A stretch of 64,000 bases of DNA, from the NCBI RefSeq assembly GCF_017873815.1, contig NZ_JAGGKQ010000006.1, positions 62,001 through 126,000 on the forward strand, read 5' to 3'. Made by a program: the position numbers and the translations under genes. This DNA is from Halorubrum alkaliphilum. Lineage in GTDB: Archaea > Halobacteriota > Halobacteria > Halobacteriales > Haloferacaceae. The notes beneath the pieces are model-generated. The model had not been told where the DNA came from and did not search any database. It worked only from the letters and a program-made list of their open reading frames with translations. Shown in pieces: positions 12,015 to 49,080 of this stretch (positions are counted from its first letter, which is position 1; each line of letters begins with the position of its first letter).

Positions 12015-12381
12015 TTCCCTTATAAATCGGAGGGCAGGATGCTTCCCAAGTCCCAGCCGCTCATTTATAAATCGCTGATAGAGGCTCTTCGGTGAACACC
12101 TCCCAAAGCCCCAGTCGTGAGGGCGGCGCACGTTCGCTGCGGTCCTCACTCGGTCGCAGGCTCCCTCGTTGCGGTCCTTGCGTCACCTGCGCCGCCCTCA
12201 CGACTGCCCCTTTGAGTCCCACCCCGCACAGCAACCGCACCTCACGCCTCCCCAACCTCGTCAGGGGCGGTCGCCGGAACCGCTCGGCGACCGCCCCTGA
12301 CTCCCTCGCGCCGTCGGTTTGCGCCCTTAAAAGGGCGCAAACCGGGACGCGCCAACCGCATCGTTCCTTTATAAATGAACG
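12015..12381 (+). repeat. Modular intergenic repeat, copy A
   Basis: The roughly 500 bases between htpX and the next gene hold no credible gene but are highly structured. In order: two TATA-like TTATAAATCG boxes (12020 and 12065); the module CTCCCAAAGCCCCAG; a perfect 19-bp inverted repeat (12112-12130 and 12188-12206) enclosing a 57-base segment; a conserved core beginning CCCCTTTGAGTCCCACC (about 12207-12260); a perfect 16-bp-stem hairpin (12261-12276/12285-12300); a second perfect hairpin of 12 bp (12316-12327/12332-12343); and CGTTC-TTTATAAAT-GAACG at the right end. The same core recurs at 45065-45124 and, reversed, at 48747-48811. No transposase is encoded. Confidence 0.85.
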
Positions 12382-44227: not shown

Positions 44228-44550
44228 AGCGGACAGAGGGAGCCCGACTCCCGTGCCGTTGGCATGAGGAAAGTCCCCCCACCGGCCGGACGGGCGACCG
44301 GGCACACGCTCGGAGTCGGAGACGGCTGGCTCTGGAACAGCAACGACACCCCCCACCTCGACCCGTGATTCGTGCGAACCGACCCGTAAGGGAAGGGAGC
44401 TAACCCGATGAGGTTCGACGGGTGGGAACGGATGGAACGGCGAATCCTCGCCGGTGCAAGTCCGCGGCCATTAGGTAGTCCGGCCACGGCCGCAGACGCT
44501 GAGCCGAATGTCGGGACGAACCGAAGGGGGCTTACTCCCCTCAGTCCGCT
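44228..44550 (+). ncRNA. rnpB: RNase P RNA
   Basis: The catalytic RNA that trims tRNA 5' ends. The universal CR-I block GAGGAAAGTCC is at 44266-44276 and CR-V (GGGGGCTTAC) at 44526-44535. They pair as helix P4: AAG-U-CCCCC with GGGGGCUU, leaving the conserved bulged U. The ends pair as P1: AGCGGAC (44228-44234) with GTCCGCT (44544-44550), extended by GAGGGAG with CTCCCCTC. Between them are GGTGCAAGTCCGCGG and the AGACGCTGAGCCGAATG stretch seen in archaeal P RNAs. Length (about 323) fits archaeal type A RNA. Ends are set from P1 pairing and the TATA position and may be off by a few bases. Confidence 0.93.
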
Positions 44551-44799
44551 TATAAGGGCGACTGGCGAGTCCACGCGTCGGATCGTCGTCGTGGATCCCG
44601 TTCGAACATGAGACGATCGTCTCACCCCGTAGTCGGGATCCGTTCATCGGTGAGCGATGTCGGGAGTATATCGAGCATACTGAGACGGTGGTGTTTATAA
44701 GCGAGAGAGTGATGTTGCTGGCGGCGGTTTATAAGTGAATGACTCCGCGAGAAACAACTCACACGTTCCACCCACTCGTGTATAAGTCTGCGACTGCGG
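44551..44799. other. AT-rich flank between rnpB and repeat copy B
   Basis: No gene is visible. The stretch holds several TATA-like words, including TTATAAGG (44550-44557), GTTTATAAGCGAG (44693-44705), GGTTTATAAGTGAAT (44727-44741) and GTGTATAAGTC (44779-44789), spaced tens of bases apart. They may be promoters or remnants of repeat ends. Confidence 0.5.
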
Positions 44800-44804
44800 A
44801 TCGA

Positions 44805-45190
44805 TGGTGACGATCTCCAAAGCCCCAGCCGTGTGAGCGGCGTAGGCGTTCACGAGAGCTCCGCTCTCGTGAGCCAATCAGAACGCTGCGCGTTCTGATG
44901 ATGACGCAAGCAGCGTGGCGCGGAGCGCCACGGGCAGCCGGCGGCGCCGCCGCCGGCGACACCGCAACGAGGGAACTTGCGACCGAGTGAGGAGCGCAGC
45001 GAGCGTACGCCGCTCACACGGCAGCGAGGCGCTCCGCGCCTCTGGCAGCCGGACGTAGTCCGGCGACTGCCCCTTTGAGTCCCACCCGGCACAGCAACCG
45101 CACCTCACGCCTCCCCAGCCTCGTCGGCGGCGCCGCCGCCGGCGACCTCGCGCGCGTTTCTCGCGCGCGCCACCGCCTCGTTCAGTTATA
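44805..45190 (+). repeat. Modular intergenic repeat, copy B
   Basis: Same family as copy A, same core direction. Order: TATA-like TGTATAAG (44780), CTCCAAAGCCCCAG, inverted-repeat arm 1 (44829-44844), a 161-base inner segment, arm 2 (45006-45021; a perfect 16-bp match to arm 1), a GC hairpin module, the core GACTGCCCCTTTGAGTCCC (45065 on) through CCTCACGCCTCCCC, a GGCGGCGCCGCCGCC palindrome, and TTCAGTTATAAGC at the right end. The inner segment contains two hairpins (CACGAGAG/CTCTCGTG and ATCAGAACGC/GCGTTCTGAT). Relative to the core its ACCGCAACGAGGGA stretch runs opposite to that of copy A. No protein is credible inside. Confidence 0.85.
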
Positions 45191-45310
45191 AGCAATAGTC
45201 GCTACCGCTCAAGTCTCTTTTAAACACGATCTCGTCGTCACCGATTTGGGAGATTTACTCCCGACATCAGTCAAAACTGGTCCGCATCGGTCGACCATCC
45301 GGATCGCTAT

Positions 45311-48579: not shown

Positions 48580-49080
48580 CGGCGGCAGTGTACGTTTATA
48601 CACGGCCGGTGCGGTCGGCGCGCCCCGGTGAGCGCCGCGGCGCGGCGCTCACCGCCGGCGCGAGGTCGCCGGCGCTCCGCGCCGGCTGCCAGAGAATCTT
48701 CGATTCTCGCTGGAGCCCGGAACGGCGCTTGTAAGCGCCGTTCCGGCGAGGTTGGGGAGGCGTGAGGTGCGGTGCGGCCGTGGGTCGGGGCGGGACTCAA
48801 AGGGGCAGTCGCGGGACTACGTCCGGCTGCCCGAGGCGCGGACCGCCTCGCTGCCGTGAGGCAGTCACAGATGTTCACGAGAGCGGAGCTCTCGTGAGCC
48901 AGTCAGGACGCGGCGCGTTCTGATGATGACGCAAGGACCGCAACGAGGGAGCGAAGTGACCGAGTGAGGACCGCAGCGAACGTGCGCCCGCCTCACGGCT
49001 GGGGCGTTGGAGGTCGTCACCGTCGATCCGTAGTCAACCCCTTATAAGCGATCGGCTGGGGCGTTGGAGGTATTCGCCAC
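48580..49080 (-). repeat. Modular intergenic repeat, copy C (reversed)
   Basis: Same family as copies A and B, with the core on the minus strand (48747-48811 reads as the complement of CTGCCCCTTTGAGTCCC...CTCACGCCTCCCCAACC). Other parts: TTTATACACGG at 48595, GC-rich palindromes (GGTGAGCGCCGCGGCGCGGCGCTCACC; GGAACGGCGCTTGTAAGCGCCGTTCC), inverted-repeat arms GCCGTGAGGC/GCCTCACGGC (48853-48862 and 48990-48999) enclosing the same inner segment as copy B, and CTGGGGCGTTGGAGGT, which occurs twice (48998-49013, 49056-49071), so the left-end module is duplicated. TATA-like CTTATAAGC (49041) and GTATAAAC (49099) follow. No gene is credible here. Confidence 0.85.

Follow-up and report, generated by a model that had tools for sequence, protein, structure and literature searches.

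An inverted stem in a dispersed, RNA-like repeat of Halorubrum: a rare event, most likely of strand switching between arms

Does a small DNA switch lie beside the RNase P RNA gene of Halorubrum alkaliphilum? In the window, the 64,000-nucleotide stretch of this genome that was analysed here, the first-pass annotation had described three copies (A, B and C) of a repeat, in each of which an inverted repeat encloses a shared core that runs one way in B and the opposite way in A and C, and had read the arrangement as a possible switch with a promoter-like border. Our analysis points to a different answer. We interpret copy B as one of about 56 RNA-like repeats in this genome that are bounded by terminal inverted repeats (TIRs). 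The contents of its stem underwent a single inversion within the lineage, likeliest by strand or template switching between the arms; we assign this reading a probability of roughly 0.7. The anchor sequence GTGGGACTCAAAGGGGCAG matches the window three times, against 0.02 matches expected, and the elements around these matches are as follows.

12104..12222, minus strand: stem and anchor of copy A, core canonical
12204-12222, minus strand: anchor of copy A (window pattern match)
44828..44847, no strand: arm of the inner stem of copy B, inversion breakpoint
44846..45004, no strand: inverted inner segment of copy B, including the core at 44962-45003
44850-44872, 44877-44899, 44914-44932 and 44937-44957: hairpins within the inner segment of copy B
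45003..45022, no strand: opposite arm of the inner stem of copy B, inversion breakpoint
45067-45085, minus strand: anchor of copy B, the conserved 5' foot of the hairpin (window pattern match)
48790..49014, plus strand: anchor and stem of copy C, core canonical
48790-48808, plus strand: anchor of copy C (window pattern match)

Arms around a shared core are present in all three copies, as had been claimed. The arms measure 20 nt in B (95% complementarity), 30 nt in A (12104-12133 and 12185-12214; 87%) and 17 nt in C (48853-48869 and 48983-48999; 82%, the first 10 nt perfect). When the copies are aligned on their anchors and flanks, the core ACCGCAACGAGGGA...GACCGAGTGAGGA keeps the canonical direction relative to the anchor in A and C, whereas B has it inverted, which bears out the reported opposition. 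The B element folds far above chance (z = -7.0), and none of 100 shuffles did as well.

What is the repeat as a whole? Its limits in B are given by the G000:C4 copy, the nearest paralogue, which is 94% identical across 620 bp and is flanked by unrelated sequence.

about 44651..45273, minus strand: whole TIR-bounded repeat unit of copy B; the G-rich (putative sense) strand is the minus strand
44651..44672, plus strand: terminal inverted repeat TGAGCGATGTCGGGAGTATATC of copy B
45247..45273, minus strand: terminal inverted repeat TGACTGATGTCGGGAGTAAATCTCCCA of copy B

The TIRs of B have the form TGA..GATNNCGGGAGT, and the TIR consensus TGAKYGATNNCGGGAGTRGGTCTCGCA is present in 76 ends. At the loci examined convergent TIR pairs lie 418-1195 bp apart; they enclose at most 1195 bp, which leaves an autonomous transposon between them improbable at these loci. 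Inspection of the repeat ends by eye showed no target duplication. Terminal inverted repeats and dispersed copies are traits of MITEs and short mobile repeats (SMRs), both of which have been described in Haloquadratum walsbyi, where the SMRs lack target duplications (PMC3119063). The Halorubrum repeat resembles these elements in its dispersal, its terminal inverted repeats and the absence of room for a transposase, but it differs in a longer composite structure, in a conserved RNA-like core and promoter, and in that no partner transposon was found from the TIR spacing at these loci. Overall, it looks like a TIR-bounded, intergenic mobile unit of 450-800 bp whose G-rich strand encodes a structured RNA.

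With up to three mismatches allowed, the anchor has 57 matches in this genome, against 2 for a reversed control pattern. A script run over the loci examined resolved 56 distinct copies, a count that is approximate because the genome is a fragmented draft and several copies lie near contig ends. Copies within a few hundred bases of a contig end were seen, for example, at C2:126, C8:92199 (of 92332), C11:83914 (of 84203) and C24:163 (among L001-L070, the loci of this genome), so the repeats probably break the draft assembly; some of these copies adjoin G runs and then C. Across the genus, anchor matches occur in 51 of 52 genomes, with tens in most, one to a dozen in a few, a maximum of 193 and none in one. 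An apparent bias of insertion strand in G001 was discarded as an effect of which matches were listed, the totals being 58:47. Relatives bearing GTGGGACTGAAAGGGGC are present in other haloarchaeal families, some of which carry two elements back to back in opposite orientation (L293-L298). The repeat has no match in Rfam, and the anchor was found neither in IMG/VR viral contigs nor in the full texts of papers. One of its sequences, GTGGGAYTGAAAG, may resemble haloarchaeal CRISPR repeats in their 3' half. The repeats look like an uncatalogued family of RNA-like repeats with relatives across the haloarchaea.

Was the inner segment of B truly inverted in place? The gene that adjoins B serves as a marker for the orthologous spacer.

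44232..44546, plus strand: archaeal RNase P RNA gene adjoining copy B (Rfam RF00373, 177.7 bits)

In the spacer between RNase P and the CAAX protease, the element is canonical in three species (G008, G035 and G044) and inverted in the window; G031 retains a decayed remnant there, and the locus offered no clean empty site bearing a target duplication. BLAST of the orthologous spacers gives matches in opposite directions for the flanks and for the inner part, and the same discordance is seen against paralogues. That an inversion between the arms took place, as the first-pass annotation had surmised, is thus upheld; the canonical orthologues also count against a switch. Copy C was not found at the orthologous Pol IV spacer in the other species checked. 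Could hairpin modules simply have been re-inserted in the opposite direction? Small palindromic modules are indeed gained and lost between copies. However, relative to L003 and to the L238 orthologue the inner segment of B is reversed as a whole, module order included and exactly to the arms, and we regard such re-insertion as very unlikely.

How common is the inverted state? In a census of the fetched loci, a sample of the copies in the genus, orientation was callable in 217 copies among the matches listed, of which 210 are canonical and 7 inverted. The ratio is 41 to 5 in this genome, and in other haloarchaeal families the core is canonical wherever it could be read by eye. B therefore shows a minority form, and the two orientations are not on an equal footing. 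The contrast recurs in a second orthologous pair, L172 being inverted and L052 canonical. The inverted copies fall into one group (L001, L002, L004 and L005, four of the five in this genome), whose similar arms could reflect one event or more, and three separate loci (L039, L145 and L172); the seven need at least four independent rare events. B and its nearest paralogue, which have diverged by 6% over 620 bp, have the inverted state in common, and the large flip must therefore be slow relative to substitution.

These observations bear directly on the switch, in which a site-specific recombinase would flip the segment and alter the expression of neighbours or of the repeat's own RNA, so that cells of one population differ. 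As in phase-variable invertons, inverted-repeat arms bound the segment and both orientations are known among the copies, and TATA-like boxes lie just beyond the arms. The promoter-like border was real in that TATA-like hexamers occur near the stem of B (at 44694, 44728, 44780 and 45186), but every one of them is outside the arms. No promoter was found between the arms of B, where AT runs within 44829-45021 never exceed 3 bp, and a TATA-like hexamer falls within the stem in just 4 of 245 copies. No recombinase was detected with Pfam among the eight neighbouring genes scanned (AMMECR1, QPRTase, CAAX protease, NUDIX, DNA polymerase IV, a PAS/response-regulator histidine kinase and two assigned to no family). 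The arms also vary in sequence from copy to copy and thus provide no common recombinase site. Unlike invertons, then, the repeat shows neither a recombinase among these neighbours nor an enclosed promoter, and its orientation is strongly one-sided. Set beside the canonical orthologues, the inversion common to diverged paralogues and the flipping of loops of 3 bp described below, this leaves the switch with hardly any credence.

If the repeat is not a switch, what does it encode? On the G-rich strand a conserved foot GGG-Y-GGGACTCRAAGGGGCAG is followed by a variable stem into which palindromes are inserted, by a second, matching foot CTGGGGCTTYGGAGG and then by a sequence containing TTATAA. Two further features of B belong to this layout.

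44817..44828, minus strand: conserved 3' foot CTGGGGCTTTGG, which pairs with CAAAG...CAG and leaves a GGG/GGG internal loop
45186..45191, minus strand: TATA-like box that precedes GAGGCGGTGGCGCG, a putative promoter for RNA from the G-rich strand

The foot pair CRAAG/CUUYG covaries from A-T to G-C (210 and 14 copies), and in other families a foot C-G pair becomes G-C. Among 143 distinct arm pairs, 90% of positions pair, compared with 68% when partners are shuffled and 36-50% when the arms are slid against each other. On the G-rich strand G-T mismatches exceed A-C mismatches by 42 to 13 (p 1e-4), or by 26 to 9 once the most variable pair is set aside. These counts include related copies, with identical arm pairs merged. 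The native orientation is more stable than its in silico flip on this strand in 155 of 189 canonical copies, and flipping B back in silico gains about 7 kcal/mol. A block GCGGTGGCGCG is present in 121 of 216 copies, where it lies about 160 bp upstream of the anchor, and in 75 of these a TATA-like hexamer comes just before the block. Stem covariation, the G-T excess, the folding bias and the upstream TATA block together favour an RNA on the G-rich strand, and judged from sequence the repeat most likely encodes such a structured RNA; its expression, and any cellular role, we infer. The alternative is a palindrome at the DNA level that is held perfect by mutation bias and has no RNA function, with the orientation bias due to descent. 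Template switching can by itself homogenise arms and yield compensatory changes (PMC8604942, PMC8794818), and arm homogenisation driven by mutation could mimic part of the RNA signal. Against this, the G-T over A-C excess is confined to one strand, canonical copies fold better on that strand and the upstream TATA block is conserved, and we consider a palindrome without RNA function possible but doubtful.

Some stems (L022, L025, L031, L033 and others) have tandem G-A/A-G mismatches in place of two pairs; the mismatch occurs in 63 of 188 copies at each of the two adjacent pairs and would suit sheared G-A pairs in RNA. In the window (44690-44830) and in L013, L019 and L054, a tandem repeat of the 3' foot with its TTATAA (GCTGGGGCTTTGGAGG...TTATAA) lies downstream of the copy and supplies alternative right arms at a spacing of about 60 bp. 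The four G-tracts of the foot (GGG-Y-GGG, GGGG and GGGG) are conserved in Halorubrum copies and in L279-L298, and all four are intact in 209 of 244 Halorubrum copies; conceivably they could fold into a quadruplex in which the stem serves as one of the loops. A bolder and rather unlikely extension would be a multi-copy, mobile RNA-gene family throughout the haloarchaea, whose conserved foot GGG-Y-GGGACTSRAAGGGG...GGGG folds as a quadruplex-duplex hybrid in molar potassium, with template switching flipping the nested hairpins of the family on all scales. In the accessible portion of a survey of repeated quadruplexes in archaea, the main repeat family is from methanogens and the foot motif is not described (PMC8044849).

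By what mechanism might the stem have been inverted? The small hairpins within the stem flip as well. Their 3-bp loops occur as reverse-complement pairs, namely GGA/TCC, GGC/GCC, TGC/GCA and TAC/GTA, of which GGC/GCC is reachable by a single substitution. More often than expected, the reverse complement is present too: for 4 of 5 loop types in one hairpin (p 0.017) and for 6 of 9 in another (p 0.0017), under a simple model that treats the few distinct loops as independent draws and leaves relatedness uncorrected. Between B and its paralogue on C4 one loop is TCC in one copy and GGA in the other, an exact reverse complement. Exact reversal of a spacer between intact arms and homogenisation of the arms by compensatory multi-base changes are both found in the repeat, and both are traits of template switching. 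Work on Saccharomyces reports that short inverted repeats undergo template switching, which homogenises their arms and turns the spacers around, TCC to GGA being among the examples (PMC8604942); the same process is reported to maintain hairpins in RNA genes (PMC8794818). The Halorubrum repeat is like these cases in that its arms stay complementary and its spacers, TCC/GGA and similar loops among them, are exactly reverse-complemented. It is unlike the yeast case in that a dispersed archaeal repeat is involved and flips are nested, the smallest of 3 bp and the largest of about 155 bp; the documented yeast spacers are only 2-5 bp, with arms longer than 9 bp (PMC8604942), and template switching across a 155-bp spacer would therefore be a large extrapolation. 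In the part of the literature on chloroplast trnH-psbA that was available, palindrome-associated segments likewise flip between and within species, but these are simple hairpins in a single-copy organellar spacer, with no nesting in a multi-copy element (PMC2903610).

A rare event of homologous recombination or cruciform cutting between arms of 10-22 bp, with no template switching, would also place the breakpoints at the arms, as observed. Haloarchaea are polyploid and actively recombine, which speaks for such an event. Yet the arms are short, and the 3-bp loop flips call for the same outcome in arms of 6-10 bp, where homologous recombination is implausible; recombination therefore seems to us an unlikely source of the inversion, if a conceivable one between the 20-bp arms. 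Based on these comparisons, we favour strand or template switching and propose the following sequence of events. The 3' part of the repeat is a long stem in which several small hairpins lie. This stem would have had its contents inverted once in the lineage of B, most likely when a strand or template switch took place between the two arms while they were folded or under replication, and the inverted form would then have passed by copying or conversion to at least one paralogue. The same switching may flip the 3-bp loops in the hairpins inside the stem and maintain the complementarity of the arms. Because the segment is built of palindromes, the flipped RNA is predicted to fold almost as well as the canonical one, and rare flips would therefore be tolerated.

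What are the implications for the haloarchaea? In place of a possible switch, the locus provides a natural record of hairpin evolution. The family is dispersed and reaches hundreds of copies per genus, and in it both the homogenisation of arms and the inversion of spacers can be counted, for lengths between 3 and about 155 bp. The analysis also points to an apparently uncatalogued RNA-like repeat, of which most Halorubrum genomes carry tens to about 190 copies and which has relatives across the haloarchaea.
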